Source of the DNA: Pseudaquabacterium terrae
Lineage (GTDB): Bacteria > Pseudomonadota > Gammaproteobacteria > Burkholderiales > Burkholderiaceae_C
Length of the DNA: 36,718 bases
NCBI RefSeq assembly: GCF_013266755.1
Contig: NZ_JABRWJ010000024.1
Location: forward strand, 1 to 36,718
Reading direction: 5' to 3'
In this document: positions 4,452 through 30,247 of the stretch, one piece after another
Numbering within the stretch: position 1 is the stretch's first letter
Layout of the letters: every line of letters starts with the position of its first letter
Made by a program: the position numbers and the translations under genes
Notes under the pieces: generated by a model
What the model saw: the letters and a program-made list of their open reading frames with translations, nothing else
Databases searched by the model: none
Told to the model about the DNA's origin: nothing

Positions 4452-4535
4452 TGGAATGCTCCGGGTGGCAGGGTAATGGGTCGGTCCGCGAGCGGGGTCC
4501 GGTTGCGTTCGGCAAGGTGCTTCGGTCGGCGTCGA

Positions 4536-5780: not shown

Positions 5781-7306
5781 GGCTGCACCTTTGACGCTGC
5801 GCCGGGCTCGTCCTGCTCGAAGCGTTGCCGGACCTCGCGGCGCACCACCTTGCCGACCTCGTTGCGCGGCAGGTCGGCGACGATGTGGATCGCCTTCGGC
5901 GCCTGTACCGAGCCGATCTCGGCCTTGACGAAGCGGATCAGCTCGGCGGCATCGACGCTCGCGCCATCGCGCAGCCGGACCGCCGCCTCGACCCGCTCGC
6001 CCCACTTCTCGTCCGACAGGCCGAACACGATGCTCTCGTGCACGCCGGGGTGCTTGGACAGTGCCGCTTCGACATCGGTGGGGTAGACGTTGAATCCGCC
6101 CGAGATGATCATTTCCTTCAGCCGGCCCCGGATCGTCAGGAAGCCCTGCTCGTCGAAGGCGCCGAGGTCCCCGGTGTGCAGCCAGCCGTCGACGATGGTC
6201 GCGGCGGTCAGCTCGGGGTTGTCGAGATAGCCCTTCATCAGCAGGTCGCCGCGCGCCACCACCTCGCCGGATTCGCCGGGGGGCAGGATGCGGCCCTGTG
6301 CATCCATCACCTCGACCTGCACCAGCGGTCCCGGCCGTCCGACCGTGCCGGCGTGGCGTTCGTCGGCGAGCTGCTCGCGCGTGGCACCGGTCAGGCACTG
6401 GGAAGCTTCGGTCTGGCCGTAGGTCACGTCGATCTTGGCGCCGAAGATCGCTTGCGCCTGCCGGATCTTCTCGACCGGCATCGGCGCGGCGCCATAGGTG
6501 ATGCTGTGCAGTGCGCGGGTGTCCCGCGGCTGGCGCTGCTGCTCCGCCATCAGGGCATAGAGCAGCGTGGGCGCGAGGAACATCCGCGTCACACCGCGTT
6601 GTTCGATGGCATCGAGGATCGCCGGCGCGGCCGGCTTGCGCAGCAGGATGGTGCGCCCGCCCACTGCCAGCAGCGGAAGGATGTAGGTGCCGCCGGCGTG
6701 GGTCAGCGGCGAGACCGCCAGGCCGGTGTCGCCGCCGTGGTAGCCGTACATCAGCCGCATGTGCAGGTGCACCGTGCTGCCGACGCGATAGGGCTGCTGC
6801 ACGGCCTTGGGCACGCCGCTCGAGCCGCCGGTGAACTTGATGGCCTGCAGGTCGTCGAGCGTCACGCCGTCACGATTCGGCCGGTCACCGCCGTGGCGCC
6901 GGATGATCGATTCGAACCCGGTGCCGCCCGACACGTCGGTGGCGATCAGCACGGGCGCCCCATTCGGCGTGAACTTGTCGAGGCAGTCGTCGTCGACGAT
7001 GAAGAGCGCCGGCCGGGTCACCTCGACGATCCGGTCGAGATCACGCTTCGAATTCTGCGGATTGAGCGCGACCCAGGTATTGCCGCAGGCGTAGGTGGCG
7101 AGGATCGCGAGGTAGTGCGCGAGCGAGTTGTGGCCGCAGATGGCGATCCGGTTGCGGCACCCGGGCACGATCGATTGAACGTGCGCCGCGAGCGCATCGA
7201 CCCGAAGGGCCAGTTCCCGGTAGGACAGTGCGGTGGAGTCGGATTCGACGGCCACCGAATCGGGCAGCAATCGGGCGGTGCGGTACAGATGGTCGATGGG
7301 AAGCAT
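5777..7306 (-). CDS. AMP-dependent acyl-CoA ligase
   Basis: A 509-residue member of the ANL superfamily that activates a carboxylic acid to its CoA thioester through an acyl-adenylate. The phosphate-binding loop reads KFTGGSSGVPK (157-167), with F and G where many members have T and S. The A5 motif is TYGQTEASQ (295-303), A7 is WLHTGDLG (375-382), A8 is RGRLKEMIISGGFN (393-406) and the catalytic A10 lysine is in NEVGKVVR (K486). There is no signal peptide. It ends in an ATGA overlap with the thiolase gene and starts 11 bases after the flavin reductase stop, so all three are one operon. The substrate cannot be read from sequence; an aromatic or medium-chain acid fits the neighbours. Confidence 0.92.
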   Translation of the reverse strand: MLPIDHLYRTARLLPDSVAVESDSTALSYRELALRVDALAAHVQSIVPGCRNRIAICGHNSLAHYLAILATYACGNTWVALNPQNSKRDLDRIVEVTRPALFIVDDDCLDKFTPNGAPVLIATDVSGGTGFESIIRRHGGDRPNRDGVTLDDLQAIKFTGGSSGVPKAVQQPYRVGSTVHLHMRLMYGYHGGDTGLAVSPLTHAGGTYILPLLAVGGRTILLRKPAAPAILDAIEQRGVTRMFLAPTLLYALMAEQQRQPRDTRALHSITYGAAPMPVEKIRQAQAIFGAKIDVTYGQTEASQCLTGATREQLADERHAGTVGRPGPLVQVEVMDAQGRILPPGESGEVVARGDLLMKGYLDNPELTAATIVDGWLHTGDLGAFDEQGFLTIRGRLKEMIISGGFNVYPTDVEAALSKHPGVHESIVFGLSDEKWGERVEAAVRLRDGASVDAAELIRFVKAEIGSVQAPKAIHIVADLPRNEVGKVVRREVRQRFEQDEPGAASKVQP

Positions 7307-7317
7307 GTCGGTTCTCG

Positions 7318-8298
7318 TCAAGCGGATTGGCGCGGGGCCGCAGGGCCTTCGATGACGTGGGTCAGGAGGCCGCGGATCGATTCGATGTCCGTGTCGGGCA
7401 GCCCGGCCAATTGCTGCGCGTCGAATTCGTGCAGGCGCCGCAGCAGGGCTTCCCGGCGCTCCCGCCCCTGGTCGGTCAGGCGCAGCAGCTCGCCGCCGCA
7501 GCGCTGAACCAGCGAGCGTTCGGCGAGCTCGGCCACGGCATCCTCGGCGTCGCGCATGCCGAGGTAGGCCTGGCGCACCAGGCTGGCGAGCGTCAGTCCG
7601 TCGGGATTGCGATGCAGCACCGCCAGCACGCGGCTCTGGGCAAGCGTCAGGCCCTCGGCCTGGCGATGCGCGTCGAACTTCTCGGACAGCGCCTGGTAGG
7701 CGAACAGCAGCATCACCAGGAGGGAAGTCTCTGCCACGGGGGCCTGCGTCGCCGCGGTGGGCGGCGCCTTCAATCCGGGGTGATCGACGGCCACGCCGTA
7801 GCGGCCCTGCACGAACAGCAAGGGCTCCTTCTCGAAGCGGGTGAACTTGCGCACTCGGCCGACCATCAGCACGTGGTCGCCGCCGTCGTGCATCGCCTCG
7901 CGCTCGCACTCGAGAACGGCCAGCACGTCGGCCAGGATCGGCGCGCCCGTCTCGCCGCGGCACCAGGGCACCTGGCCGAAGCGGTCGATGCCGGGTGTCG
8001 AGAAGCAGCGCGAGACATCGATCTGGTCGGCGGCCAGGATATTCACCGCGAAATGGCTTGCCGATTCGAATAGCGCAAGGCTCGTCGCCCGGCGATTGAG
8101 GGCCCAAACGATCAGCGGCGGGTCGAGAGAAAGCGAGCTGAACGAATTGGCGGTCACGCCGACACGCTCGCCTTCGAGCTGTGCGGTGATGACGGTCACG
8201 CCGGTGCCGAATTGCGAGAGACAGCGCCGGAAGGAGCGCATGTCGAGTGCAGGATCGCCCGATTCCACGGGAATTGCTGTGGTGCCGCCGGGGGCCAT
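7318..8298 (-). CDS. Flavin reductase with C-terminal MarR-like domain (C1-HpaH-like reductase)
   Basis: A 326-residue two-domain protein. Residues about 18-175 form a flavin reductase domain of the split-barrel type (FGTGVTVITA, GVTANSFSSLSLDPPLIVWALN, SHFAVNILA, FVQGRYG). Residues about 190-315 look like a MarR winged helix (LTLAQSRVLAVLHRNPDGLTLASLV, then LLRLTDQGRERREALL). The same fusion is known in the reductase C1 of Acinetobacter p-hydroxyphenylacetate 3-hydroxylase, where the MarR-like part senses the aromatic substrate and controls NADH oxidation. A reduced-flavin-using oxygenase should therefore exist, but none is in the window. The ATG at 8298 has AGGAG with 6-base spacing; an ATG at 8304 would abut that site. 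It is first in the operon, divergent from the IclR gene. Confidence 0.9.
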   Translation of the reverse strand: MAPGGTTAIPVESGDPALDMRSFRRCLSQFGTGVTVITAQLEGERVGVTANSFSSLSLDPPLIVWALNRRATSLALFESASHFAVNILAADQIDVSRCFSTPGIDRFGQVPWCRGETGAPILADVLAVLECEREAMHDGGDHVLMVGRVRKFTRFEKEPLLFVQGRYGVAVDHPGLKAPPTAATQAPVAETSLLVMLLFAYQALSEKFDAHRQAEGLTLAQSRVLAVLHRNPDGLTLASLVRQAYLGMRDAEDAVAELAERSLVQRCGGELLRLTDQGRERREALLRRLHEFDAQQLAGLPDTDIESIRGLLTHVIEGPAAPRQSA

Positions 8299-9922: not shown

Positions 9923-11305
9923 ATGAACACGACAGTCGGTGGCCTCCACCGTCCATCGGTGGCAGCGCGTCTCGAACGCCTGCCGATGACCCGCTACCAG
10001 CGCATGCTGTTCGCGATCATCGCGACGGCCTGGTTCTTCGATTCGATGGACCTGGGGCTCATGACTTTCGTGCTCGGCTCGATCAAGGCCGAGTTCGGGC
10101 TGAGCGCGGTGCAGACCGGGCTGCTGGCGAGCTCCAGCTTTGCCGGCATGTTCCTCGGCGCCGCGACGGCCGGCATGCTGGCCGACAAGTTCGGGCGCAA
10201 GCCGGTGTTCCAGCTCAGCATGATCTTCTGGGGCGTCGGCAGCCTGATGTGCGGCCTGGCGCAGAACGTCGACCAGCTGATGGCCTGGCGCATCGTGCTC
10301 GGCTTCGGCATGGGCATGGAGTTCCCGATCGGCCTGGCGATGGTGTCCGAGATCGTGCCGGCCGTGAGCCGCGGGCGCTACGTCGCGATCCTCGAAGGTT
10401 TCTGGCCGCTTGGCTTCATTGCTGCCGGCATCACCGCCTACCTGTGCCTGCCGCTGATCGGCTGGCGCGGCCTCTTCATCGCGCTGTCGCTGCCGGCGGT
10501 GTTCGTGTTCGTCGTGCGGCGCTGGGTGCCGGAGTCTCCGCGCTGGCTGGAGGACGCGGGCCGCACGCTGGAGGCCGACGCCGTGACCAGCCGTTTCGAG
10601 CAGCGCGTGCTCGCCGCCTCGGGCCGGCAGGCGCTGCCGCCGGTGGCGTTCAGCGCGGCCGCGCCGCAGCCCAGGGCCTCGCGCGGCACGCTGTTCGCCG
10701 AGCTGTTCAAGGGTGTGTATGCCAGGCGCACGCTGATGCTGTGGGCGCTGTGGCTGTTCGCGCTGCTCGGCTACTACGGGTTGACCACCTGGCTCGGTGC
10801 ACTGCTGCAGCAGGCCGGCTACGCGGTGACGAAGTCGGTGCTGTACACGGTGTTGATCTCGCTGGCCGGCATCCCGGGCTTCATCTTCTCGGCCTGGCTG
10901 CTCGAAGCCTGGGGCCGCAAGCCGACCTGCGTGCTGATGCTGGTGGGCAGCGCGGCGGCTGCGTACCTCTACGGCCAGGCCGCCGCCACGCAGGCGCCGG
11001 TATCGCAGCTGATCATGGCGGGCCTGGCGATGCAGTTCTTCCTGTTCGGCATGTGGTCGGTGCTGTACGCCTACACGCCGGAGCTGTACCCGACCCGCTC
11101 GCGCGCCACCGGCGCCGGCTTCGCGTCGTCGATCGGCCGCATCGGCTCGCTGGCCGGGCCGTACATCGTCGGCGTGCTGCTGCCGATCACCGGCCAGGCC
11201 GGCATCTTCACGCTCGGTGCCGCCTCGTTCGTCGTCGCAGCGCTGGTGGTGCTGCTGCTCGGCGCGGAGACCAAGGGCCAGTCGCTCGAGCAGCTGTCGG
11301 GTTGA
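9923..11305 (+). CDS. MFS transporter (organic/aromatic acid:H+ symporter-like)
   Basis: A 460-residue inner membrane protein with about 12 transmembrane segments. It has the MFS signature between TM2 and TM3 (GMLADKFGRKP), an acidic residue in TM1 (FFDSMDLGLMTF) as in acid:H+ symporters, FGMGMEFPIGLAMVSEI in TM4 and PESPRWL after TM6. The sugar/aromatic-acid-symporter branch fits best, so it probably imports a carboxylate. The start is firm: AAGGAG at 9909-9914 precedes the ATG at 9923. It is preceded by operator-like site 1 and convergent with the GntR gene, which suggests control by that regulator and uptake of the substrate degraded by the genes from 12133 on. Confidence 0.92.
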   Translation: MNTTVGGLHRPSVAARLERLPMTRYQRMLFAIIATAWFFDSMDLGLMTFVLGSIKAEFGLSAVQTGLLASSSFAGMFLGAATAGMLADKFGRKPVFQLSMIFWGVGSLMCGLAQNVDQLMAWRIVLGFGMGMEFPIGLAMVSEIVPAVSRGRYVAILEGFWPLGFIAAGITAYLCLPLIGWRGLFIALSLPAVFVFVVRRWVPESPRWLEDAGRTLEADAVTSRFEQRVLAASGRQALPPVAFSAAAPQPRASRGTLFAELFKGVYARRTLMLWALWLFALLGYYGLTTWLGALLQQAGYAVTKSVLYTVLISLAGIPGFIFSAWLLEAWGRKPTCVLMLVGSAAAAYLYGQAAATQAPVSQLIMAGLAMQFFLFGMWSVLYAYTPELYPTRSRATGAGFASSIGRIGSLAGPYIVGVLLPITGQAGIFTLGAASFVVAALVVLLLGAETKGQSLEQLSG

Positions 11306-11387: not shown

Positions 11388-12119
11388 TCAGCGATCGCCG
11401 AGAACCGTGGCGCGCGTGTAGTGCTCGATGTTGTCGATCAGCTTGTCGAGCGCGTGGCCCGCAGCGTCCGCGTCGGCCTTGGCGACCGCGGTGGCCACTG
11501 CGGCATGCAGCTTGGCCATCTCCGGCATGTCGGGCGACTGCTTGTAGTGCATGTACCAGAAGCGCCGCGACAGGCCGTGCAGCAGCCGCATGGCGCCTTC
11601 GGCGAACTCGTTGCGCGCGGCGGCCAGGCACAGTTCGTTGAACTCGCGGTCGGCGCGGATGAAGGCGACGTCGTCGTTCTTCGCCGCGGCGCCGACGAAG
11701 TCCCGGGCCAGCCGCGCGAAGCGCTGGCGTTCGGTGTCGCTGGCGCGGCGTGCGGCGCTGCGGCAGACCAGGCGCTCGATCTCGCGCCGGGTCTCCAGCA
11801 GCTTCAGCTGCTTGTTCAGGTCGACCGCTGCCACCAGCAGCCCCCGCTGCGGCAGCACGACGATCAGGTGCTCGCGCGCCAGGCGCTGGATCGCCTCGCG
11901 GATCGGCGTGCGGCCGATGCCGGTCATCTCGGCCAGCTGCTGCTCGGAGACGACGGCACCCGGCGGCAGGCGCAGCGTGACGATCGCCTCCTCGAGCATC
12001 TCGTACGCCATGTCGGTCAGCTTGGCTTTCGGTTCGAGCAGCGGCGCGTCGTCTGCCGGCGCGGCGGCGCGCGGCGCCGGGGGGCGGATCGGTGCCGTGC
12101 TGCGCTTGCGGGTGGCCAT
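11388..12119 (-). CDS. GntR family transcriptional regulator, FCD (FadR/VanR) subfamily
   Basis: A 243-residue regulator. After a Pro/Ala-rich tail of about 35 residues comes the GntR winged helix (YEMLEEAIVTLRLPPGAVVSEQQLAEMTGIGRTPIREAIQRL, about 39-80, with VVLPQRGLLVA as wing). The rest is an all-helical FCD effector domain with the metal-ligand pattern DREFNELCLAAARN, then a histidine in KLHAAV and another in NIEHYTRA. It is divergent from the hydrolase-ADH operon and convergent with the MFS gene. Three similar operator-like sites near the MFS, hydrolase and hydroxylase starts make it the likely local repressor, responding to a carboxylate. The site at 12138-12156 lies just upstream of its own start, so autoregulation is likely. 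Confidence 0.92.
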   Translation of the reverse strand: MATRKRSTAPIRPPAPRAAAPADDAPLLEPKAKLTDMAYEMLEEAIVTLRLPPGAVVSEQQLAEMTGIGRTPIREAIQRLAREHLIVVLPQRGLLVAAVDLNKQLKLLETRREIERLVCRSAARRASDTERQRFARLARDFVGAAAKNDDVAFIRADREFNELCLAAARNEFAEGAMRLLHGLSRRFWYMHYKQSPDMPEMAKLHAAVATAVAKADADAAGHALDKLIDNIEHYTRATVLGDR

Positions 12120-12132
12120 CAGGAGGAACTCC

Positions 12133-12891
12133 GTGAATTCAACTGACATACTAACTGACGACGTGCTCGACATCGAGTGCCTCGGCCGCGGCCCGCGGGT
12201 GCTGGCGCTGCACGGCATCCAGGGCACGCGTGCCGCCTGGCTGCCGGTGGCGCGGCGGCTTGCGGCGCACGCCCGCTTCGTGCTGCCGAACCTGCGCGGG
12301 CGCGGCCGTGCGCCGCGCGGCAGGGGCCCCGGCGACTACACGCTGGACGCCTACGCCGGCGATGCCGCGGCGGCGATCGAGCGCCATGCCGCCGGCGCGC
12401 CGTACTTCCTGGCCGGCTGGAGCATGGGCGTGTCGGTGGCACTCGCACTGCTGGACCGCCGGCCCGAGCTGCGGCCGGCCGGGCTGATCCTGCTGTCGGG
12501 CACGCCCTGTCTGGCGCAGGCGCGCTGGTTCGACGGCGAGGGCGCCGCGCTGCTGGCCGCGGTCGCCGCGCGCGAGCATCGGCTCGGCCTGCTGCAGGCT
12601 GCCGACCACGACGCCGTCGCCTTCACCTGGCGCGCGATATGCCTCACCGACCAGCGCCCGCTGCTGCCACGCATCGATGGCCCGGCGCTGCTGCTGCACG
12701 GCAGCGCCGACACCGACTCGCCGCACGAGCATGCGCGCTGGCTCGCCGAGGGCCTTCCGCAGGCGCGGCTGGTGACGCTGGCCGGTGCCGGCCACGCGCT
12801 GCTGACCGAGCACACCGAGCGCGTCGCCGCGGAAATCGAATCCTTCCTCGCGCAACATGCGCGCCCCCCGAAAGACCCCCATGAGACCTGA
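12133..12891 (+). CDS. Alpha/beta hydrolase
   Basis: A 252-residue alpha/beta hydrolase, presumably cytoplasmic (no signal peptide). The oxyanion-hole region is LALHGIQGTRAAW, the nucleophile elbow is GWSMG (serine near residue 98), the acid is in LLHGSADTDSP and the base histidine in LAGAGHALL. A GTG start at 12133 is chosen because a strong AGGAGG (12121-12126) lies 6 bases upstream and there is no suitable ATG. The last codons overlap the alcohol dehydrogenase start (12881). Ester, lactone or C-C bond hydrolysis are all possible. With the neighbouring dehydrogenase it may release an alcohol from an ester and hand it on for oxidation. The operator-like site 2 lies within its first codons. 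Confidence 0.88.
   Translation: MNSTDILTDDVLDIECLGRGPRVLALHGIQGTRAAWLPVARRLAAHARFVLPNLRGRGRAPRGRGPGDYTLDAYAGDAAAAIERHAAGAPYFLAGWSMGVSVALALLDRRPELRPAGLILLSGTPCLAQARWFDGEGAALLAAVAAREHRLGLLQAADHDAVAFTWRAICLTDQRPLLPRIDGPALLLHGSADTDSPHEHARWLAEGLPQARLVTLAGAGHALLTEHTERVAAEIESFLAQHARPPKDPHET
12138..12156. promoter_or_regulatory. Operator-like sequence, site 2 (probable GntR target)
   Basis: TTCAACTGACATACTAACT overlaps the first codons of the hydrolase gene and lies 18 bases upstream of the GntR start on the other strand. Against site 3 (TTCAACTGATATATTAGT) it shares TTCAACTGA exactly, then ATA and TA at the same positions. It is the least symmetrical of the three copies. Binding here could repress the GntR gene itself and block the hydrolase operon. 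Confidence 0.45.
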
Positions 12892-14143
12892 AGACCTGAT
12901 CCACTTCTGCCCGCCCGGCCGGCTGATCATCGGCTGCGGCACTCGCTCGACGCTGCCGCCACTGGTGCAGCGGCTCGGCCACCGCTGCGGCGTGTTCGTC
13001 ACCGACGCCTTCTTCACGCGCCACACGCCCTGGGTGCAGCAGTACCTCGATGCCGCCGCGGCGCTGGGCATCCGCACCGTGGTGTTCGACGGCGGCCTGC
13101 CCGACCCGACGACGACGCTGTGCGACGCAGCGACCGCGGCCTTGCGCGAGCAGCTCGCCGGCACCGCGCCCGACCACGTGATCGCGCTCGGCGGCGGCAG
13201 CAACATCGACCTGGCGAAGGCGCTGTGCCTGACGCTGACCGAAGGCCGGCCGGTGCGCGAATTCGTCGGCGACATCGGCGGCTGCCGGCCGCTGTCGCTG
13301 ATCGCGCTGCCGACCACCTCGGGCACCGGCTCGGAGGCGACGCCGGGCGCGATCCTGCTCGACCCGGGCAACGCGACCAAGGTGGCGGTGATGGACAACG
13401 CGCTGCGGCCTCAGGTGGCCTTGATCGACCCGGAGTTGAGCTTCACCTGCCCGCCGCGCGTGACGGCCGATGCCGGCATCGATGCCTTCACGCATGCGAT
13501 CGAGTCGCTGCTGACGATCGACTCGGCCGCCTATGACCGCACCGGCCACGTCGACCCGGGCTACAGCGGGCGCTCGTCGCTGACGATGATGTTCGCGCGC
13601 GAGGCGATCCGGCTGTGCATCGCGTACCTCGAGCGCGCTTACCGCGACGGCTGCGACACGACGGCGCGCATCGGCATGGCCTACGCCAGCGTCTACGCGG
13701 CGCTGTCGTACGGCAGCGCCGGGCTGAACGCGGTGCACGGCATCGCCTACGCGGTGGCCGGCCGCACGCACTGCAGCCACGGCAGCAGCAACGCGGTGAT
13801 GTTGCCCTACGTGCTGGACGCGCTGCGCGACGTGCGCCGGGTCGAGCTGCTGGAGGTGGCGCGCCTGTTCGGCCTGCCCGGCGACGACGCGGCGGCGCTC
13901 GCTGCGCTGCCGCAGGCGGTGCGCGGCCTGGTCGGCCGGCTCGGCATTCCCACCGACCTGCGCGGATTCGGCATCGAAACAAGTGAACTCGATGCGCTGG
14001 TGGCCGACGCGCTGGCCGTCACCCGCCTGGCGAAGGCGTTCCCGGTGGTCGACGTGGCGGGCTGCTATCGCGCGATCGTGCACGACGCGTTCGACGGCCG
14101 GCTGGCGGCCGACGATCGCCTTGAATTGGTAGCTTTCAACTGA
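12881..14143 (+). CDS. Iron-containing (group III) alcohol dehydrogenase
   Basis: A 420-residue member of the metal-dependent group III alcohol dehydrogenases, which interconvert alcohols and aldehydes, or hydroxy- and oxo-acids, with NAD(P). The dinucleotide motif is ALGGGSNIDLAKA (102-114) and the substrate loop is LPTTSGTGSEAT (143-154). Metal ligands match D201 and H205 (GIDAFTHAIES), H286 (AVHGIAYA) and H300 (CSHGSSNAVMLPYV). The C-terminal part ends GCYRAIVHDAFDGR. The ATG at 12881 overlaps the hydrolase stop (12889-12891); an in-frame ATG at 12857 would add eight residues. Operonic with the hydrolase, it probably oxidises the released hydroxy compound, or reduces an aldehyde. The last codons overlap operator-like site 3. 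Confidence 0.9.
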   Translation: MRPEDLIHFCPPGRLIIGCGTRSTLPPLVQRLGHRCGVFVTDAFFTRHTPWVQQYLDAAAALGIRTVVFDGGLPDPTTTLCDAATAALREQLAGTAPDHVIALGGGSNIDLAKALCLTLTEGRPVREFVGDIGGCRPLSLIALPTTSGTGSEATPGAILLDPGNATKVAVMDNALRPQVALIDPELSFTCPPRVTADAGIDAFTHAIESLLTIDSAAYDRTGHVDPGYSGRSSLTMMFAREAIRLCIAYLERAYRDGCDTTARIGMAYASVYAALSYGSAGLNAVHGIAYAVAGRTHCSHGSSNAVMLPYVLDALRDVRRVELLEVARLFGLPGDDAAALAALPQAVRGLVGRLGIPTDLRGFGIETSELDALVADALAVTRLAKAFPVVDVAGCYRAIVHDAFDGRLAADDRLELVAFN

Positions 14144-14149
14144 TATATT
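14121..14149 (+). promoter_or_regulatory. Probable sigma-70 promoter for the hydroxylase/lyase genes
   Basis: TTGAAT (14121-14126) and TATATT (14144-14149) are separated by exactly 17 bases, a good match to a housekeeping promoter. The -35 lies in the end of the alcohol dehydrogenase gene and the -10 sits inside operator-like site 3, so a bound regulator would cover it. Transcription would start near 14156, some 27 bases before the hydroxylase ATG. Confidence 0.6.
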
Positions 14150-14153
14150 AGTA
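14135..14153. promoter_or_regulatory. Operator-like inverted repeat, site 3 (probable GntR target)
   Basis: ACTGATATATTAGT (14139-14152) is palindromic but for one pair. Including flanks, it matches site 1 through TATATTAGTAG and site 2 through TTCAACTGA, so it links the two other copies. It overlaps the alcohol dehydrogenase stop codon and the -10 of the promoter proposed here. Part of it is coding sequence, so the resemblance could be partly chance. Confidence 0.55.
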
Positions 14154-14182
14154 GGATGCAAGTTGATCCAGGAGCGCCGACC

Positions 14183-15025
14183 ATGATGACCGAACGCCAA
14201 CGCCAGTTCCGCGAGCAGTACAAGGCCGACATCAGCCCCTTGTACAACGGCCTGCTGCACATCGCCGTGATCTACGGCGTCGGTGCGGCGGCGATCTGGT
14301 ACTGCACGGGACAGATGCGGTACGCCGGCTGGGAATGGCTGCTCGCGCTGCCGGTGTTCATCGCCGGCAACTTCGTCGAATGGTTCATGCACCGCCACGT
14401 GATGCACCGGCGCATCGACGTGTTCGCGCTGCGGGCGATCTACGAGCGCCACACGCGGCAGCACCACCAGTACTTCACCGATCTCGAGCCGACGATCGAC
14501 TCGACGCGCGAGTTCCGCATCGTGTTCTTCCCGTGGCGCGTGCTGATCACGCTGGGCGTCGGCGGCCTCGCGCTGGGCTGGCTGGCGGCGCAGGTCTTCA
14601 ATGCCAATGCCGGATACGTCGTGTTCGTCACGATGGTCGCGCAGTACCTGGTCTACGAGACCTTTCACTACTGCTGCCACGTGCACGACAACTGGTTCGT
14701 GCGCCACACGCCCTTCATCAACACGATCCGCCGACACCACACGGCGCACCACAACATGGGGATCATGATGAAGTACAACATGAACCTCACGTTCCCGATC
14801 GCCGACTGGTTCATGGGCACCACCGACCTGCGTCGCGGCCTGCTCGGCCACCTGTTCAACGGCTACAGCGAGAAGCACGTGAAGCAGGAGCTGAAGCCGA
14901 TCATCGCGAAGTTCCGCGACGACCACAGCCGCGTCACGCTCGACGGCCCGCAGCTGACCTTCCAGGAAGAGAGCGTGATGGTCGGCGGCGGCCGCAACGA
15001 AACGTGCGCAATGAGGGCGCAATGA
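14183..15025 (+). CDS. Fatty acid hydroxylase / sterol desaturase family membrane protein
   Basis: A 280-residue integral membrane di-iron enzyme of the fatty acid hydroxylase superfamily, which oxidises C-H bonds of lipophilic substrates with O2. Hydrophobic helices lie near residues 22-40, 50-66, 118-138 and 142-160. The histidine clusters are HRHVMH (70-75), ERHTRQHH (89-95), HYCCHVH (162-168) and RHHTAHHN (184-191), the family's metal-binding boxes. The ATG at 14183 is chosen for the GGAG 8 bases upstream; an in-frame ATG at 14156 lacks a site. It has its own promoter within operator-like site 3. The tail is odd: an 11-base unit (GCGCAATGAGG) is tandemly repeated at 15006-15027 and supplies the stop. 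Substrate unknown; its link to the lyase genes downstream is unusual. Confidence 0.88.
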   Translation: MMTERQRQFREQYKADISPLYNGLLHIAVIYGVGAAAIWYCTGQMRYAGWEWLLALPVFIAGNFVEWFMHRHVMHRRIDVFALRAIYERHTRQHHQYFTDLEPTIDSTREFRIVFFPWRVLITLGVGGLALGWLAAQVFNANAGYVVFVTMVAQYLVYETFHYCCHVHDNWFVRHTPFINTIRRHHTAHHNMGIMMKYNMNLTFPIADWFMGTTDLRRGLLGHLFNGYSEKHVKQELKPIIAKFRDDHSRVTLDGPQLTFQEESVMVGGGRNETCAMRAQ

Positions 15026-15130: not shown

Positions 15131-16423
15131 ATGCAGATCACCGGCATGTTGCACGGCGCACGCCTGCTCAAGTTCGTCGGCTTTCCCGCTACCGAGGTTC
15201 TCGGGCCCGGCGCGAGCGAAGAAGAGATCAAGGCCCTGATCGATCGCCACGGCCAGATCTTCATCAAGCCGGTCTTCAAGGGCGGCATCGGCAAGAAGGG
15301 CAAGGCGGGCCTGCTCGGCCGCGCGAACGACCTGAAGACGGCGCTGGCCGAGAAGGAGCGGCTCTACTTCGTCGAGCATGCGGTCGGCCACGTCAAGGCC
15401 AAGGCCAACGGCGTCACCTTCGAAGCCGGCGTGCCGGCCAAGCACGAGGTCTACTTCTCGATCAGCGACTCCACGCACTTCCGCGCGCCGACGATGACGC
15501 TGACGCACTGCGGCGGCATGGACATCGAGGAGGTCGACAAACGCCACGTCGCGCAGGTGCCCTTCGATCCGCTGACCGGGCTGAAGGCCTTCGTCGTCGC
15601 CAATGCGCTGAGTGAGATCGGCGCGCCCAAGGAGATCATCTCGCCGCTGGTGCAGCAGCTGCCCAAGCTCTGGGAGCTGTTCCACGACTTCGGCATGACC
15701 ACGCTGGAGCTCAATCCGATCCGCCTGCACGAGGACCGCAAGGGCCGGCTGACGCCGGTGGCCTGCGACTTCAAGTGCGGCTTCGACCGCGACGATCCGC
15801 GCTGGGCCCGGCTCGGGCTGCCGGCGCACCTGTTCGCGGCGGACCACACCGACTTCGAGCAGGAGATCAACCAGCTGCGCACGCACCAGGGCCAGAGCGA
15901 CGTCTACGTGATCAACGACCAGGGCACGATCCTCGCGCCCACCTTCGGCGGCGGCGCCAATTCACTGGTCACCGAGATGCTCGGCGACGCGGCGATCATT
16001 TCGTCGGACTTCGGCGGCAATCCGCCCTACGACAAGATGAAGGAGGTGGCGCGCATCTGCTTCAAGCACTGGCTGAAGCAGTCGAACGTGCTGTTCGTGA
16101 TCGGCGGCAAGAGCAACAACACCGACATCCACGAGACGCTGCGCGCCATCGCCGATGCGCTGCGCGAGCACGTCAGCGCCTACGGGCCGGTGCCGCTGTA
16201 CGTCGTGCTCGGCCGGGGCGGACCGAACCTGGTGCGCGGCATGGCCGCGCTGCGCGACACCTGCGACCAGTTGGGGCTGCCGTACCGGCTGTTCGGCTTC
16301 GACTCCGACATGAGCCAGGTCATCGATTACGCCAAGCAGGCCGATGCCTGGATGCGCGCCGGTGGCCGCGCGCAGCTCGCCGCCCGCATGGGCATCGCTT
16401 CAACCCCGCAGCACGCCGCCTGA
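15131..16423 (+). CDS. ATP-citrate lyase-like small subunit (ATP-grasp plus citrate-binding domain)
   Basis: A 430-residue protein arranged like AclB, or the N-terminal part of human ACLY. An ATP-grasp/succinyl-CoA-synthetase-beta-like domain (about 1-240, with PVFKGGIGKKGKAG and the metal-binding TLELNPI at 191-197) is followed by a citrate-binding-like Rossmann domain. In the latter, GGGAN (273-277), NNT (329-331) and GRGGPN (361-366) align with human ACLY elements that hold citrate (Gly309; Asn346/Thr348; Arg379), with a one-residue gap in the second. So an acid close to citrate is a plausible substrate, activated by ATP and CoA. GAGGAG precedes the ATG. The large-subunit gene starts 11 bases after the stop, so the two are co-translated. 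Confidence 0.85.
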   Translation: MQITGMLHGARLLKFVGFPATEVLGPGASEEEIKALIDRHGQIFIKPVFKGGIGKKGKAGLLGRANDLKTALAEKERLYFVEHAVGHVKAKANGVTFEAGVPAKHEVYFSISDSTHFRAPTMTLTHCGGMDIEEVDKRHVAQVPFDPLTGLKAFVVANALSEIGAPKEIISPLVQQLPKLWELFHDFGMTTLELNPIRLHEDRKGRLTPVACDFKCGFDRDDPRWARLGLPAHLFAADHTDFEQEINQLRTHQGQSDVYVINDQGTILAPTFGGGANSLVTEMLGDAAIISSDFGGNPPYDKMKEVARICFKHWLKQSNVLFVIGGKSNNTDIHETLRAIADALREHVSAYGPVPLYVVLGRGGPNLVRGMAALRDTCDQLGLPYRLFGFDSDMSQVIDYAKQADAWMRAGGRAQLAARMGIASTPQHAA

Positions 16424-16433
16424 AGGAAACATC

Positions 16434-19133
16434 ATGGTCAAGCCAGGCATCGGCGACTTCAAGTACCACGTCGGCATCGGCTCGCTCGCGCAGATCGCGA
16501 CGCGTGAAGACCGCGTCTGCGTGCTCAACATCCTGGGCGGCGAATCGAGCGACGTGACGCCGGTCAGCCACGCCTATTCCGGCGGCAACGTCGTCTTCGG
16601 CACCGCGCCCGGCAAGGGCGGCCAGGTGCTGGCGACGCCGGCCGGCGACATCCCCGTCTACAACAACGTGCGCGAAGGCCTGCAGGCTGGCCACCGCTTC
16701 AACTGCGGCGTCGTCTACCTGCCTCCTTCCGCCGCGCGAGACGGCGTGGCCGAGCTGATCCGCGTCAATCCGGAGCTGAAGAAGGTCTTCATCATCACCG
16801 AGAAGATCTCGGTGCACGACGCGCGCGAGATCCGTGCGATGGGCCAGCAGGCCGGCGTCGACATCTTCGGTGCCAACGGACTCGGCGTGGCGGACTCGTG
16901 GAACCGCGTGCGCATCGGCGGCGCCCTCGGCGGCGATGCGCCCAGCGACAGCCTGAAGCCGGGCTCGATCGCGATCTTCTCGAACTCCGGCGGCTTCTCG
17001 ACGACCATCGCGCAGTACCTGCGCATGAGCGGCTGGGGCACGACCACCGTGATCTCCAGCGGCAAGGACGTCTACATCCACTACGCGGCGCCGGAGTTTG
17101 CGTTCGCGCTGGCCAACGATGCGCGCAGCAAGGCCGCAGTGCTGTACTGCGAGCCGGGCGGCTACTACGAGCACGACGCCACGTTCACCAAGCCGGTGGT
17201 CGCCTGCGTCGTCGGGCGCTGGAAGAGCAAGCTCACGCGCGCCGTCGGCCATGCCGGCGCGATGGCGGGCGGCGAGGACGATGCGCTCGCGAAGGAGCGC
17301 TGGTTCATGCAGAAGTTCGGCGTCGACGGGCTCTTCACGCCCGAGGCGCCGGTGTTCTCGACCCGCGGCGCCGTGGTGACCAACATCGCGCACATCCCGG
17401 TCGCGCTGGCTGCGGTGATGCGCGCCAACGCGACGCTGCCCGACTTCGAGCCCGAAGGCAGCCTGGCGCTCAAACCCTGGTTCGGTGCCGATGCGGGCCT
17501 GTCGCTGCCGCCGGTGCTGGCACTGCCCGTGGTGCAGGCCCTGTCGCCGTACGGCGAGCAGATCACGGCGGTGAACCGGCAGATCGGCAGCATCGCACCC
17601 CGCCAGGCGATGAAGGACGCCTCCGGCGCGTCGCAGATGGATGCGCAGACGCAGGTCAGCAGCCTGCACGGCGTGTCGATGCTGCATGCGGCGACGCAGC
17701 CGCTGGAGTCGCTGGTCAAGCTGGCGCTGCTGCACGAGCTGGGCGAGGCGCAGGACCGGCCGCTGGTCGCCGCGGCGATCGCCGCGCACGTCAACCTGCA
17801 CGGCACGCCGGAGCTCGCCGCGGCGCAGGCCGCGCGCGATGCCGGCAATGCGCCGAACGCGGTGCTCGCTGCTGCGGCCAGCATCGTCGGGCCGAAGCGG
17901 CAGCAGGCGGCGCGCGACGCCGCCAAGCGCCTGATCGACCGCTTCGCTGCCGCCGGGCTCACGCAGGCGTACGACGAATCGTTCGACCTCGGCCGCGTCG
18001 ACATCGAGGGCTGCGAGTCGCTGGTGCGCGCGACGCCCGACGAGCGCGCGCAGGCGCTGCTCGCGGGGCTGAAGGCGCGCGGCGCAACATCGGTCTTCGT
18101 GCGCTGGCTGCAGACGCTGCCCGGCCATCCGACCGCCGATGCGGTGCTCGCCGCGGTGACGACCACGCTCGCCTGGGGTCCGTTGGCCAGCAAGCGCATT
18201 TCGCGCCTGACGGCCGAGAGCCTGCCGTGGTGGATGACGCTGTTCGGCACGCTGATCGGCGCGTCGGCCGATGCGGCGCGTCATCAGGACGGGTGCTTCG
18301 GCGGCTTCGACGACGCGGCCTTGCTGGGTCGCTGCAGCCTGGGTGAGATCGCATTCGCGGCGCTGCTCGGCCGGTCGCCGGCAGAAGCGGACCTGTTCGC
18401 CTTCCAGACGCTCATCGGGCTGCTGCTGACCAACGGTCCGGGCGCGATCTCGGCGCAGGGCGCGAAGGGCGCCGTCTCGGCCGACGGCCCCGAAGCGCCC
18501 GAGCGCGTGCAGCTCAACAAGGCGCTGGTGGGTTTTCTCACGCACACCGGCTTCACCCACGGCGGTAACGGTTATGAGGGCATCGCGTTCCTCAGCGAGC
18601 AGTTCCGCGATGCCGCGCTGGCCGACCCGTCGGACCCGGCGCACGGTGTCGACCTGCATGCGCTGGCCGCGCAAACGGCCGCGCACTATGCACGTTACAA
18701 GTCCGAGCGCAAGAGCGCCGGCAGCCTGGAGATCGCCAAGCTGCCGGGCGTGAACCATCCGGTGTTCAAGGACAAGCCGGTCAACCACGACCCGCGCGAG
18801 GTGTTCATCGCCGAGCTGCTGGAGCGCCGCGGCGAGTACAACGTCTTCCATGCGTACTACCGCGCGCTGGTGCAGGCATTGTTCGACGCCGGCGTCTCGC
18901 GCAACGTCTACTGCGTCAATGTCGACGCGGTGATCGCGGCGCTGCTGCTGAAGATGCTGTGGCAGCCGCTGCAGCGCGGTGACTTCGCCGCCGCCGACCT
19001 CGAGACAGCGGCGTTCACGATCTTCCTGTATCCGCGCATGCTCGGCTGCGCCGCGGAGGTCGACGACCACATGAACCGCGGCCGCAACATGGACACGCGC
19101 ACGCCGGCGTCGCAGTGCCGGTTCGTGGCCTGA
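16434..19133 (+). CDS. ATP-citrate lyase-like large subunit with duplicated citrate-synthase-like region
   Basis: An 899-residue fusion. Residues 1-320 are a SucD-like CoA-binding and ligase domain with the phosphohistidine motif VGHAGAMAGG (H273). Residues about 570-899 form a citrate-synthase/citryl-CoA-lyase module: LGEIAFAALLGR (636-647), FTHGG (H709), GVNHPVF (H775), NVDAVIAALL (D831) and RMLGCAAEVDDHM (R868). Between them, about 370-560, lies a second stretch with the citrate-synthase-like pattern LVKLALLHELG...GNAPNAVLAAAASIVGPKRQQA, where the catalytic HGG is QQ, so it looks degenerate. Known AclA is near 610 residues, so this protein is about 290 longer. The arginine after the second catalytic histidine (GHRV in relatives) is proline here. 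It likely cleaves citrate or an analogue into an acyl-CoA and an oxoacid. Confidence 0.82.
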   Translation: MVKPGIGDFKYHVGIGSLAQIATREDRVCVLNILGGESSDVTPVSHAYSGGNVVFGTAPGKGGQVLATPAGDIPVYNNVREGLQAGHRFNCGVVYLPPSAARDGVAELIRVNPELKKVFIITEKISVHDAREIRAMGQQAGVDIFGANGLGVADSWNRVRIGGALGGDAPSDSLKPGSIAIFSNSGGFSTTIAQYLRMSGWGTTTVISSGKDVYIHYAAPEFAFALANDARSKAAVLYCEPGGYYEHDATFTKPVVACVVGRWKSKLTRAVGHAGAMAGGEDDALAKERWFMQKFGVDGLFTPEAPVFSTRGAVVTNIAHIPVALAAVMRANATLPDFEPEGSLALKPWFGADAGLSLPPVLALPVVQALSPYGEQITAVNRQIGSIAPRQAMKDASGASQMDAQTQVSSLHGVSMLHAATQPLESLVKLALLHELGEAQDRPLVAAAIAAHVNLHGTPELAAAQAARDAGNAPNAVLAAAASIVGPKRQQAARDAAKRLIDRFAAAGLTQAYDESFDLGRVDIEGCESLVRATPDERAQALLAGLKARGATSVFVRWLQTLPGHPTADAVLAAVTTTLAWGPLASKRISRLTAESLPWWMTLFGTLIGASADAARHQDGCFGGFDDAALLGRCSLGEIAFAALLGRSPAEADLFAFQTLIGLLLTNGPGAISAQGAKGAVSADGPEAPERVQLNKALVGFLTHTGFTHGGNGYEGIAFLSEQFRDAALADPSDPAHGVDLHALAAQTAAHYARYKSERKSAGSLEIAKLPGVNHPVFKDKPVNHDPREVFIAELLERRGEYNVFHAYYRALVQALFDAGVSRNVYCVNVDAVIAALLLKMLWQPLQRGDFAAADLETAAFTIFLYPRMLGCAAEVDDHMNRGRNMDTRTPASQCRFVA

Positions 19134-21224: not shown

Positions 21225-22637
<1,413 letters not shown>

Positions 22638-26612: not shown

Positions 26613-27764
26613 CTACAGCCGGTCTTCGGTGCCCAGGATCGCCGTCGCCTGGCTGGAGAGCACGCCGCCATTGCCGTGCGCCAGCGCCAGTTGCGCGCCA
26701 CGCACCTGGCGCTCGCCGCACTCGCCGCGCAGTTGGCGCACCGACTCGACCACCGTGAACAGCCCGAACATGCCCGGATGGCAATACGACAGCCCGCCTC
26801 CGCTGGTATTGACCGGCAGTACACCGCCCGGCGCGATGCGGCCGCCTTCGACGAAGGCGCCGCCTTCGCCCTTGGCGCAGAAGCCCAGGTCCTCGAGGAA
26901 CAGCAGCGTATTGATCGTGAAGGCGTCGTAGACCTGAACGACATCGATGTCGGACGGCTTCACGCCCGCCTGTGCGTAGGCGCGGGCGCCGGACAACTTG
27001 GCGCCGGTGACGGTGAGATCGGGCATCGCGGCGATGTCGGCATGCGTGACCGCGGAGGCCGCCGCCAGCAGGTAGGCCGGCCTGGCGTGATGGTCGCGCG
27101 CGCGCTCGGCGCGCACCAGCACGACGGCGGCGGCGCCATCGGTCACCAGGCAGCAGTCGCGCACGCCGAGCGGGTCGCTGACCAGGCGCGCATTGACAAC
27201 GGTGTCCAGATCCAGCGGCTCGCGGGCGACCGCCTCGGGATTGAGCTGCGCCCAGCGCCGCGCCGCCACCGCCACTTCGGCCAGCTGGCGCTTGGTGGTG
27301 CCGTACTGATGCATATGACGCGCGGCAGCCAGCGCGTACGACGAGATCGGCCGCAGCGGCTTGTACGGCGCCTCCCACACGGAGGGGCGGCTGGTCTGCT
27401 GCAGCTTGCCGGCGGCGCTGGCCTGGTTGCTGCCGTAGGCGATCAGCGCCACGTCGGCCAGGCCGGCGTCGAGCACCAGCGCGGCATGTTCCAGGTGCAG
27501 CAGGAAGGCCGAGCCGCCGCTGCGGTTGTTGTCGCTGATCTTGGGAGTTATGCCGAGGTACTCGGCGAAGCTCAGTGTCGCCAGCGTGTCCTGCGGCTGC
27601 GCGATGAAGAGCGCGTCGACGTCGCGCGGCGCGAGACCGGCTTCGGCCAGCGCGCGCAGGCTGGCGTGCGCGGCCAGGTCGATCGCATCGAAACCCGGAG
27701 CCTTGCCGATGCCGAAAGTGGCGGCACCGACGATCGCAGTCCTGCCGCGCGGAAAGCCGTGCAT
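26613..27764 (-). CDS. Thiolase-like protein of the SCP-x/Ltp type lacking the nucleophilic cysteine
   Basis: A 383-residue thiolase-fold protein. Where thiolases have the nucleophile, it reads NNRSGGSAF (serine 82 in place of Cys). The second motif is VYDAFTINTLLFLEDLG and the histidine region is SGGGLSYCHPGMFGLF, so the usual GHPIG is altered but a histidine remains. Loss of the cysteine argues against normal thiolysis; proteins of this family paired with DUF35 partners can act as retro-aldolases. It is 11 bases downstream of such a partner (27776-28147) and in the same operon as a crotonase. It probably cleaves a beta-hydroxyacyl-CoA or does a related step. Exact reaction unknown. Confidence 0.82.
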   Translation of the reverse strand: MHGFPRGRTAIVGAATFGIGKAPGFDAIDLAAHASLRALAEAGLAPRDVDALFIAQPQDTLATLSFAEYLGITPKISDNNRSGGSAFLLHLEHAALVLDAGLADVALIAYGSNQASAAGKLQQTSRPSVWEAPYKPLRPISSYALAAARHMHQYGTTKRQLAEVAVAARRWAQLNPEAVAREPLDLDTVVNARLVSDPLGVRDCCLVTDGAAAVVLVRAERARDHHARPAYLLAAASAVTHADIAAMPDLTVTGAKLSGARAYAQAGVKPSDIDVVQVYDAFTINTLLFLEDLGFCAKGEGGAFVEGGRIAPGGVLPVNTSGGGLSYCHPGMFGLFTVVESVRQLRGECGERQVRGAQLALAHGNGGVLSSQATAILGTEDRL

Positions 27765-27775
27765 CGCGGTTTCCT

Positions 27776-28147
27776 TCAGTTGGCCGGCACGAAGACCACG
27801 CGCGGGCCCTCGTCGCCGGCATCGATCTGCGCGACCACGGCCATGCCGATGCGCACCTGCGCCGGCGCGATGCCGGTGACGGTGCTCATCATCCGCGGGC
27901 CCTCGGCGAGCTCGATCAGCGCCACGTTGTAGTCGAGCGCCGGCGGCTTGCAACGCACGGTGGTGCTGGAGTACACCGTGCCGCGGCCCGAGGCCGGCAC
28001 CCAGTGCAGGTCGGTCGCGCCGCTGCCCGGTGCCGCGATCCGTGGCGGGTGGATGAAGGCGCCACTCGCGCGCGATTGCAGCAGCATGAAGCGGCCGGCT
28101 TCGAGGTGTTGCCGGAACTGGCTTTCAGGATGCAGCAGCGTCTCCAT
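27776..28147 (-). CDS. OB-fold DUF35-like protein without zinc ribbon
   Basis: A 123-residue protein of the DUF35/OB-fold type that assists acyl-CoA-acting enzymes. The rubredoxin-like zinc finger region, normally CxxC...PPRxxCPxCG, is recognisable but reads SRASGAFIHPPRIAAPGSG, so all four cysteines are replaced (Ser, Ser, Ala, Ser). The OB part (GRGTVYSSTTV, YNVALIELAEGPRMMSTVTG, IGMAVVAQID) is intact. It lies 6 bases after the crotonase stop and 11 bases before the thiolase-like gene, as expected for a subunit of that enzyme. Compare the second copy at 32568, which keeps all four cysteines. Confidence 0.82.
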   Translation of the reverse strand: METLLHPESQFRQHLEAGRFMLLQSRASGAFIHPPRIAAPGSGATDLHWVPASGRGTVYSSTTVRCKPPALDYNVALIELAEGPRMMSTVTGIAPAQVRIGMAVVAQIDAGDEGPRVVFVPAN

Positions 28148-28153
28148 CGGCGC

Positions 28154-28924
28154 TCAATGTCCGGTGAAGCGCGCGGCGCGCTTGTCCTTGAAGGCCTGCG
28201 TGCCTTCCTTGAAGTCGTCGGCCTGCACCGCCAGCGGCAGCATGCTGCCTTCGAGGTCCATGAACTGATCGAGCGTCAGCGTGGCGGCGACGTCGAACAT
28301 GCGCTTGGCCAGGCCGAGCGCGATGGTCGGCGCGGCGGCGTACTCGTGCGCCAGCGCCAGCGCCTGGTCCATCAGCGCGGCATCGGGCACCACCTTGTTG
28401 ACGAGGCCGAGCGCCAGCGCCTCGTCGGCGCCCACCATGCGTGCCGAGAAGGCGAGGTCCTTGGCTTGCGTCACCCCAAGCCGGCGCACCAGGAACCAGG
28501 CGCCGCCGGCATCGGGCGGCAGCGCAATCTTGCGCTGGATCTGCGAGAAGCGCGTGGTCTCGGAGGCCACGATCACATCGGCGGCCAGCGCCATCGACAA
28601 GCCCATGCCGACCGCGACGCCACGGGTCGCCGCGATCACCGGCTTCTGCACCCGCGCCAGCGCGCGGATCGCCTTGTGCATGTGGCGCGCGCGCAGGAAC
28701 GAGCCGTTGAGCCCGCCCATGCCCATCTCGCCGATGTCGGCGCCGGCGCAGAAATCGGTGCCCGCGCCGGTGAGCACGACGGCGCGCAGCTCGGGCCGGT
28801 CGTTGATCTCCTCGCACAGTTCAGCCAAGCGGTCGCGCATCGCGAGCAGCATGGCGTTCTTCTTGTCGGGGCGGTCGAGGGTGACGATGCCGACAGCGCC
28901 GTCGATGGTGAAGCCGATGCTCAT
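28154..28924 (-). CDS. Enoyl-CoA hydratase/isomerase family protein (crotonase)
   Basis: A 256-residue crotonase. Oxyanion-hole segments are LTGAGTDFCAGADIGEM (51-67) and ATRGVAVGMGLSMALAADV (99-117). The first catalytic glutamate of hydratases (GGGCELA-type) is not conserved (GMGLSMA), while the second position is aspartate in ALPPDAGGAWFL (134-144). That pattern is common in isomerase-type members such as PaaG, so double-bond isomerisation is more likely than hydration. It opens the minus arm of a divergent pair; the degenerate copy of the palindrome lies 11 bases upstream of its ATG. Confidence 0.9.
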   Translation of the reverse strand: MSIGFTIDGAVGIVTLDRPDKKNAMLLAMRDRLAELCEEINDRPELRAVVLTGAGTDFCAGADIGEMGMGGLNGSFLRARHMHKAIRALARVQKPVIAATRGVAVGMGLSMALAADVIVASETTRFSQIQRKIALPPDAGGAWFLVRRLGVTQAKDLAFSARMVGADEALALGLVNKVVPDAALMDQALALAHEYAAAPTIALGLAKRMFDVAATLTLDQFMDLEGSMLPLAVQADDFKEGTQAFKDKRAARFTGH

Positions 28925-28934
28925 CGGTGACCTA

Positions 28935-28948
28935 CATAGTTAACCTGG
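28935..28948. promoter_or_regulatory. Degenerate copy of the divergent operator
   Basis: CATAGTTAACCTGG matches the core of the palindrome at 29009-29022 at 11 of 14 positions and keeps the central AGTTAAC. It lies 11 bases before the crotonase start codon. The mirror-like placement of the two sites, each close to one start codon, suggests one regulator for both arms. No TetR or GntR gene is next to it. Confidence 0.5.
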
Positions 28949-29007
28949 TGATGTAAGTTTAGGATCTCTGCCGTCGCGGAGTCTCAGGGATGACCCGAAC
29001 GTATTCA

Positions 29008-29023
29008 ACCTAGTTAACTAGGT
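29008..29023. promoter_or_regulatory. Perfect 16-bp palindromic operator
   Basis: ACCTAGTTAACTAGGT is a perfect palindrome ending 13 bases before the ATG of the first acyl-CoA dehydrogenase. Palindromes of this length in front of acyl-CoA catabolic genes are usually bound by TetR-family (FadR/PsrA/LiuR-like) regulators that sense acyl-CoA. It stands out as AT-rich in very GC-rich surroundings. Confidence 0.65.
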
Positions 29024-29035
29024 AAGATCTTGGGC

Positions 29036-30184: not shown

Positions 30185-30212
30185 GCCCGCACGGCCGCCC
30201 GAAGGGCGAATT

Positions 30213-30247
30213 CCCCCTTGGGGGGACGGCGCGCAGCGCCAAGGGGG
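30213..30247 (+). repeat. Hairpin repeat covering the ribosome site of the second acyl-CoA dehydrogenase
   Basis: CCCCCTTGG (30213-30221) pairs with CCAAGGGGG (30239-30247), and inside it GGCGC (30228-30232) pairs with GCGCC (30236-30240), partly sharing bases. The right arm contains AAGGGGG, the Shine-Dalgarno of the gene starting at 30252. Folding would hide that site. The element resembles the GC-rich hairpins at 11345 and 24777 and may be a dispersed repeat that landed inside the operon. Confidence 0.55.

Follow-up and report, generated by a model that had tools for sequence, protein, structure and literature searches.

A Type II ATP-Citrate Lyase-Like Gene Pair with a Degenerate Duplicate Lyase Domain in Pseudaquabacterium terrae

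The Gene Pair and Its Small Subunit

The window analyzed here is the whole 36,718-nucleotide stretch of contig NZ_JABRWJ010000024.1 from Pseudaquabacterium terrae, which carries two adjacent forward-strand genes resembling those of ATP-citrate lyase (ACL). The first gene (15131..16423, +) encodes an AclB/CcsA-like small subunit of 430 residues with an ATP-grasp and a citrate-binding domain, and the second (16434..19133, +), which starts at ATG 16434 and has full-length homologs, encodes a large subunit of 899 residues; the two open reading frames (ORFs) are 10 bases apart. An earlier note on this DNA had described a two-gene ACL-like enzyme with an extra, degenerate citrate-synthase-like segment, and had suggested a distinct clade that may use a substrate other than citrate. 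Both ORFs were confirmed, and their domains were identified by Pfam, NCBIfam and PDB matches. A pseudogene was considered and rejected, since both frames are open and relatives are under purifying selection.

The small subunit matches Citrate_bind (6.5e-16) and ATP-grasp_2 (5e-13) in Pfam. Its best PDB match is 6hxq_B, the large subunit of Hydrogenobacter citryl-CoA synthetase (CCS), with an E-value of 1.5e-31, followed by the ACL chain 6hxi_A (E 1.6e-22). The ATP-grasp fold and three citrate-contact motifs reported previously were all recovered. GGGAN (residues 273-277; 15947..15961, +) is identical in 51/51 small subunits and aligns with GGGAS of human ACLY; NNT (residues 329-331; 16115..16123, +), likewise identical in 51/51 and also present in CcsA, corresponds to human N346-F347-T348; and RGGPN (residues 362-366; 16214..16228, +) occupies the position of human R379, with every position of the longer GRGGPN (361-366) identical in 50 or 51 of the 51 sequences. 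The position of human F347 is Asn in all 51 small subunits and also in CcsA. These correspondences were obtained by sequence and motif alignment rather than by superposition, and they use what we take to be the list of citrate-contact residues of human ACLY. The conservation sets comprised 57 large and 51 small subunits, from which rows with coverage below 93%, split rows (the small subunit of L023/L072), stop-containing rows and duplicates had been dropped.

The Synthetase and Lyase Domains of the Large Subunit

Residues 24-300 of the large subunit (16503..17333, +) form a SucD/CcsB-like acyl-CoA synthetase domain, which matches 6hxq_A (E 1.7e-35) and, over residues 24-298, a SucD-like NCBIfam model (7.1e-32). 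The phosphohistidine H273 in the GHAGA motif (17250..17252, +), which had been proposed together with this domain, is identical in 57/57 large subunits. Residues 620-895 (18291..19118, +) form an intact citryl-CoA-lyase (CCL)/citrate-synthase-homology domain, assigned by the CCL model NF004869, hhalign and conservation. The match to NF004869 covers residues 623-848 at 3.8e-7, below the cut-off of the model, and no match to Pfam Citrate_synt (PF00285) was found in the large subunit at E<=0.1, so that the protein does not count as a citrate synthase by the Pfam cut-off.

The active-site residues of this domain, H709 in HGGNG (18558..18560, +), H775 in NHPV (18756..18758, +), D831 (18924..18926, +) and R868 (19035..19037, +), are each identical in 57/57 large subunits, and so is R889. 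The replacement of GHRV by NHPV, which had been pointed out before, is a fixed property of the relatives compared, as H775 and the directly following P776 are identical in 24/24 homologs. Averaged over columns, conservation among the 57 homologs is 0.81 for the SucD-like domain, 0.74 for the C-terminal domain and 0.62 for the domain between them. Residues 390-408 (17601..17657, +) form a strongly conserved stretch (mean 0.835), and it would be a guess to call it a linker or a CoA contact.

The Extra Middle Domain

Residues 409-613 (17658..18272, +) make up a degenerate CCL-like domain from which the catalytic residues are absent, as indicated by profile match, AlphaFold2/Foldseek comparison, conservation and the ratio of nonsynonymous to synonymous substitution rates (dN/dS). 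When the profile of residues 340-614 was aligned with that of residues 615-899 (57 homologs) by hhalign, a match with a probability of 97.1 and an E-value of 5.5e-11 over 190 columns was obtained. The best of 200 column shuffles reached E 0.0081 (score 26 versus 80), and the other controls gave 0.26 (reversed profile), 0.27 (middle versus SucD part) and 0.47 (SucD part versus C-terminal domain). A narrower middle profile (395-560) matched the C-terminal domain with E 1.1e-4 only. The extra segment is therefore real, but it lies at about residues 409-613 and not at 370-560 as first placed.

A template-free AlphaFold2 model of residues 402-612 had a predicted local distance difference test score (pLDDT) of 84 and a predicted TM score (pTM) of 0.82. 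In a Foldseek search with this model, the best 50 of 181 PDB matches (E<=10) were all ACL, CCL or (methyl)citrate synthase, the TM score normalised to the query was 0.32-0.60 among the matches listed, and the top structural match was 6hxp (Ccl). In the alignment of the two domains, H709 and H775 face gaps; residue 569, opposite D831, is Asp in 26/57 homologs; and residue 606, opposite R868, is Thr in 39, Val in 8, Ala in 8 and Ser in 2 of the 57 and never Arg, with Arg found four positions earlier, at residue 602, in 38/57. Hence the four catalytic residues are in place in the last domain only, as had been noticed at the outset. The dN/dS of the middle domain is 0.093-0.140 in 6/6 pairs of relatives, so that the domain is held by selection despite its lower conservation.

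Several results weigh against this assignment. A profile built from 31 canonical citrate synthases is not matched by the middle domain (E 0.28-0.29); the intact C-terminal domain itself matches that profile with E 1.9e-4 over 41 columns only; the Foldseek E-values of the middle domain are 2.2e-3 at best, with none at 0.001; and the full-length model of the large subunit is of low confidence (pLDDT 64, pTM 0.56), with ten-residue blocks of residues 411-660 averaging 77 to 96. The first and the third of these would also suit a different explanation, namely that the middle segment is a helical linker unrelated to CCL. That explanation is very improbable in view of the controlled profile match of the segment to the C-terminal domain of its own protein and of the uniform identity of its best 50 structural matches. 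Taken together, the missing match of the middle domain and the 41 columns of the intact domain point to a remote branch of the fold. The fold assignment of the middle domain is carried by the consistency of the results and by the profile match more than by any single E-value.

The possibility that the middle segment represents the N-terminal part of a full-size citrate synthase was also considered and was rejected in favour of duplication. The full-length model aligns with whole citrate synthases over 506-539 columns, and for this reason the middle segment was folded by itself; folded alone, it best matches the compact CCL core. The middle profile covers nearly the whole C-terminal domain, which favours duplication.

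Relationship to Known ATP-Citrate Lyases

Canonical type I ACL, represented by Chlorobium AclA/AclB and human ACLY, shares with the window enzyme the acyl-CoA synthetase half, the phosphohistidine and a citrate-synthase-homology domain with active-site residues. It was rejected as the identity of the pair because the large subunit has 899 residues instead of about 610 and two citrate-synthase-like domains instead of one; the Chlorobium large chain has 617 residues in PDB, in agreement with the length contrast drawn in the earlier note. Human ACLY differs further in F347, which is replaced by Asn in the window protein according to the alignment, and presumably in R976, which by motif, with the ACLY motif assumed, corresponds to Pro. 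In PDB, both synthetase halves find their best match in Hydrogenobacter CcsAB (6hxq_A and 6hxq_B), with which NNT is shared; CcsAB and Ccl are separate proteins, whereas the window chain joins CcsB-like, dead Ccl-like and live Ccl-like parts.

Judged by sequence, the pair appears to be a type II ACL, a group already postulated, so that the clade proposed as distinct is indeed set apart by sequence but is not new. Hugler and Sievert (2011) are said to have named type II. The two-gene arrangement of type II, with adjacent CcsA-like and SucD plus citrate-synthase-like genes, is present, and the gene order is the same in relatives. Published type II primers encode VAKEEWF and NGFEAIA, as given in a passage of PMC3522073; the window large subunit has AKERWF and NGYEGI, 426 residues apart, which are related but not identical to the primer peptides. 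Among the 57 aligned large-subunit homologs, all of about 900 residues, KE.WF occurs in 55, NG[FY]E[AG]I in 50 and both in 49. The postulated type II enzymes of Magnetococcus MC-1 (Mmc1_3638/3639), tubeworm endosymbionts and Thioflavicoccus share with the window the adjacent gene pair, and the likeness extends to the primer-site motifs, to all catalytic residues and to the length of the large subunit, about 900 residues in those homologs that were retrieved in full length. The differences are that most heterotroph-type loci (21/25) lie near citrate/tricarboxylate transporter genes and not near reductive tricarboxylic acid (TCA) cycle or nuo genes, that the pair is patchy in the host genus, and that it occurs on plasmids as well.

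According to the relevant passages of the literature, citrate cleavage was detected in MC-1, for which Mmc1_3638/3639 were named as the postulated type II ACL (PMC6783814), and the family was tied to the reductive TCA cycle in magnetotactic cocci (PMC6783814) and tubeworm symbionts (PMC3522073). Type II aclAB was reported to be clustered with acn, idh, mdh and korABCD (PMC6315080, in part), and CCS/CCL-like genes of Planctomycetes were placed between CCS-CCL and type II (PMC5459899, in part).

The window large subunit is 60-64% identical to homologs from two genomes of the same class as the host (G116 and G232) and two of the same order (G425 and G629), and 57% identical to the homolog of G674, which lies at 4.57 Mb on its contig. 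In tblastn comparisons, reductive-TCA genes were found near three of the four related loci, L069 (G425), L071 (G116) and L072 (G232): aconitase near all three, monomeric isocitrate dehydrogenase near L069 and L071, and 2-oxoacid oxidoreductase subunits near L069 (beta) and L072 (alpha and beta). The references for these comparisons were chosen by eye from the same loci and are therefore partly self-matching; their identities were checked later, and six of these neighbour proteins were confirmed by Pfam, five of the six also by NCBIfam. At the fourth locus, L070 (G629), no reductive-TCA genes were found, but the contig ends 598 bp beyond the pair; its other flank has genes similar, by eye, to the L069 flank. 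In L072 the small-subunit gene is broken into two overlapping ORFs, by an assembly error or a frameshift, and the large subunit is intact.

Distribution and Transporter Linkage

Large-subunit homologs at E<=1e-40 were found in 3/274 genomes of the class, 3/399 of the order and 3/21 of the genus, each count including the host's own genome, and the rarity in Burkholderiales stated earlier thus holds. In a phylum sample, 40/398 genomes had matches at E<=1e-30, some of them partial and one covering residues 21-278 only. Named records include Paraburkholderia, Caballeronia, Burkholderia sp., Rhizobacter, Pseudorhodoferax, Methylibium and metagenome-assembled genomes (20 loci, some of them fragments), and plasmid records come from Paraburkholderia, Caballeronia, Microvirga, Sinorhizobium, Gemmobacter, Polymorphobacter and Aminobacter. 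Of the 114 plasmid records with any match, 19 cover at least 80% of the query; in 7 of the 19 the large subunit goes by 'CoA-binding protein' and in 4 by 'hypothetical protein', and 8 carry no annotation for it. At L081, the lyase pair follows a dehydrogenase-rich cluster on pUSP3, a 97-kb plasmid of Aminobacter sp. MSH1 typed as conjugative.

For the comparison of neighbourhoods, loci were labelled heterotroph-type or autotroph-type on the basis of branch, neighbours and names, not of tested physiology, and neighbouring genes were called with the lyase genes fixed. The heterotroph-type set consists of 25 loci (the window, L003-L007, L009-L014, L018, L019, L022, L076-L083, L092 and L093), with L008, L015, L016 and L017 left out for contig ends inside or beside the pair and L020 and L021 for matches of only 31-42 residues. 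The autotroph-type set consists of 20 loci (L056-L075), of which 16 are flanked by 3 kb or more on both sides.

A gene for TcuC, a citrate:cation (2HCT) symporter, CitMHS or TctA lies within 7 kb of the pair at 21/25 heterotroph-type loci (TcuC at 9, TctA at 6, citrate:cation at 5 and CitMHS at 1), and at none of the 20 autotroph-type loci was such a gene found near the pair. The transporter is within 310 bp at 16/25 heterotroph-type loci, or 17 if the TctC of L011 is counted. TctC-type receptors are numerous in Burkholderiales, which makes the L011 count weak. NCBIfam supplied the names of the reference proteins TcuC (1e-229), CitMHS (6e-169), citrate:cation (3e-139, below the model cut-off) and malic enzyme, and Pfam those of TctA (3.4e-153) and TctC (4e-37). 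As annotated, tcuAB and a tautomerase gene are close by at the Gemmobacter locus. The nearest relative of the window, L022 (82%), has an aconitase-like gene (28%) at 4.8 kb and no transporter gene. A small acyl-CoA thioesterase gene is found 4 bp from the pair in Gemmobacter L079, 1.1 kb in L018 and 3.4 kb in L078.

On a quick tree of 59 rows, the transporter label requires 4 changes, compared with 17.3 in shuffles, and the magnetotactic-like and reductive-TCA groups require 1 each. The four transporter-less rows need 3 changes versus 3.9 when shuffled and are clustered no more than by chance. Beside the reductive-TCA rows, the 25 heterotroph-type rows fall into one branch of 21 and another of 4, so that a single clade is not shown; the window protein sits among the transporter-linked rows, apart from the reductive-TCA ones.

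Proposed Function

The computations show which domains are present, the duplication, the conserved residues, the family assignment by sequence and the linkage of relatives to transporter genes. That the pair is active, on which substrate and in which direction, what the middle domain is for, that the hosts live as heterotrophs and what the enzyme does in the window host are inferred from there. We consider it likely that the pair is a type II ACL that acts on citrate in a heterotroph, keeps a dead middle duplicate and belongs to a branch recruited for imported citrate. The small subunit and the SucD-like domain would phosphorylate H273 from ATP, activate citrate and form citryl-CoA, which the C-terminal domain would cleave; the middle domain, a duplicated CCL domain, may have lost catalysis and been kept for structure, assembly or CoA binding. 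Within its branch the enzyme may have been turned to imported citrate as a source of carbon: as many close relatives stand beside citrate importers, it probably degrades citrate as food rather than serving to fix CO2. A substrate other than citrate, as envisaged in the earlier note, is made unlikely by the intact citrate-contact motifs and by the transporter genes near the pair at most heterotroph-type loci.

A number of points weigh against this reading. The position of human Tyr364 is His in the window small subunit (His in 31/51, Tyr in 18/51). Type II ACL is called only 'postulated' or 'putative' in the passages of the literature covered here, in which no purified enzyme appears. The window, L010, L022 and L081 have none of the above transporter genes within 7 kb; the nearest candidate to the window pair is a TctC-like protein (27%) at 10.8 kb. 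The host genome has no close TcuC (best 32%) and no citrate:cation symporter, with CitMHS and TctA not searched for.

The linkage of the family to the reductive TCA cycle in magnetotactic cocci and tubeworm symbionts (parts of PMC6783814 and PMC3522073) and the same-order genome G425, which has the pair beside aconitase, isocitrate dehydrogenase and the oxidoreductase beta subunit, would suit an autotrophic role of the pair in the window host, as would four POR_N-domain matches in the host genome, not typed further. Such a role is nonetheless highly improbable: with the references used, no reductive-TCA genes were found beside the window pair, as the earlier note had also stated, a difference from type II ACL in how the enzyme is used rather than in the protein itself, the host genome encodes a full ordinary citrate synthase (3.3e-133), and the tree places the window protein with the transporter-linked rows.

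The locus is real and mostly explained as a member of a postulated family. Two features deserve notice, its dead duplicate domain and the heterotrophic branch linked to transporters; no description of the extra domain or of a heterotrophic type II ACL was found in the open-licence papers of PubMed Central (PMC) that were searched. ACL genes serve as markers of CO2 fixation (PMC9802188, in part), and a heterotroph branch linked to citrate uptake could mislead surveys that use them in this way. There is debate on whether ACL uses its citrate-synthase-like part for catalysis or for allosteric control; one study of human ACLY, in which F347 and R976 are discussed, argues that cleavage takes place in the synthetase half and that the citrate-synthase part acts allosterically (PMC10115795). 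An enzyme whose chain holds a dead and an intact copy, and in which F347 and R976 are replaced, would be a direct test case for that debate. The Asn that type II enzymes have in place of F347 and the Pro that follows their H775 counterpart are a better fit to a division of labour in which CCS acts first and CCL second. More tentatively, with the chances somewhat below even, the enzyme may differ from the ACLs of solved structure, with their identical lyase domains, in possessing a pseudo-symmetric core, with a live and a dead lyase copy per chain and the dead one shaping or regulating the live one, and the branch may be a soil- and plant-associated one that eats citrate at the expense of ATP through dedicated transporters.

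Genomic Surroundings of the Pair

Upstream of the lyase pair lies a conserved cassette, consisting of a major facilitator superfamily (MFS) transporter closest to aromatic acid/H+ symporters (9986..11305, +; NCBIfam and cassette comparison), a divergent GntR/FCD regulator (11388..12149, -; cassette comparison), an alpha/beta hydrolase (12163..12891, +), an iron-dependent alcohol dehydrogenase (12881..14143, +), both from gene calls and Pfam, and a histidine-rich membrane protein of the sterol-desaturase kind (14183..15025, +), assigned from gene calls and the annotation of its plasmid relatives ('sterol desaturase family protein'). The membrane protein is matched neither by Pfam at E<=10 nor by NCBIfam at 1e-5, and it occurs in 53/399 genomes of the order at E<=1e-30, its own included. 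The cassette ends 105 bp before the pair, and the same-strand genes at 12163..15025 and the lyase pair are perhaps one transcript.

The same cassette (47-82% identity) occurs without lyase genes in the Cupriavidus plasmids L153 and L154 and in L147; L148 and L151 have it without the MFS gene, and L152 has the regulator and the membrane protein only. Since the cassette exists elsewhere without the lyase, the pair probably joined a pre-existing catabolic cassette in this lineage. A citrate analogue could be the real substrate of the window copy, with the hydrolase, the alcohol dehydrogenase and the hydroxylase-like membrane protein releasing and oxidizing a larger compound to a citrate-like acid for the lyase to split. 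The position of the pair directly behind the cassette would suit this idea, as would the lack of a close TcuC and of a citrate:cation symporter in the host genome and the malonate decarboxylase genes, for another free-organic-acid enzyme, close to cassette members in L152 (mdcA 1.7e-268) and L154 (mdcB above and mdcH below the cut-off). The idea is unlikely all the same, although less so for the window copy, whose neighbours are not citrate-uptake genes, than for the family: the 51 small subunits show no variation in GGGAN, NNT or RGGP, most related loci adjoin citrate/tricarboxylate transporter genes, and the dehydrogenase and membrane protein of the cassette are beside the lyase at none of the other loci examined, so that the association of cassette and lyase is not conserved.

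TRAP transporter genes are near cassette members in L151 (one NCBIfam match) and L148 (by eye). Elsewhere in the window, genes for a TctC-type receptor, a thiolase, an AMP-dependent ligase and a flavin reductase are present at 3456-8241, and an acyl-CoA dehydrogenase gene (30252-31361) and others resembling genes of acyl-CoA catabolism, by eye, at 26613-36438. An aspartate ammonia-lyase gene (TIGR00839, 4.4e-214) at 21225-22637, past a LysR gene and an esterase-like gene on the opposite strand, is possibly a fumarate/aspartate link.

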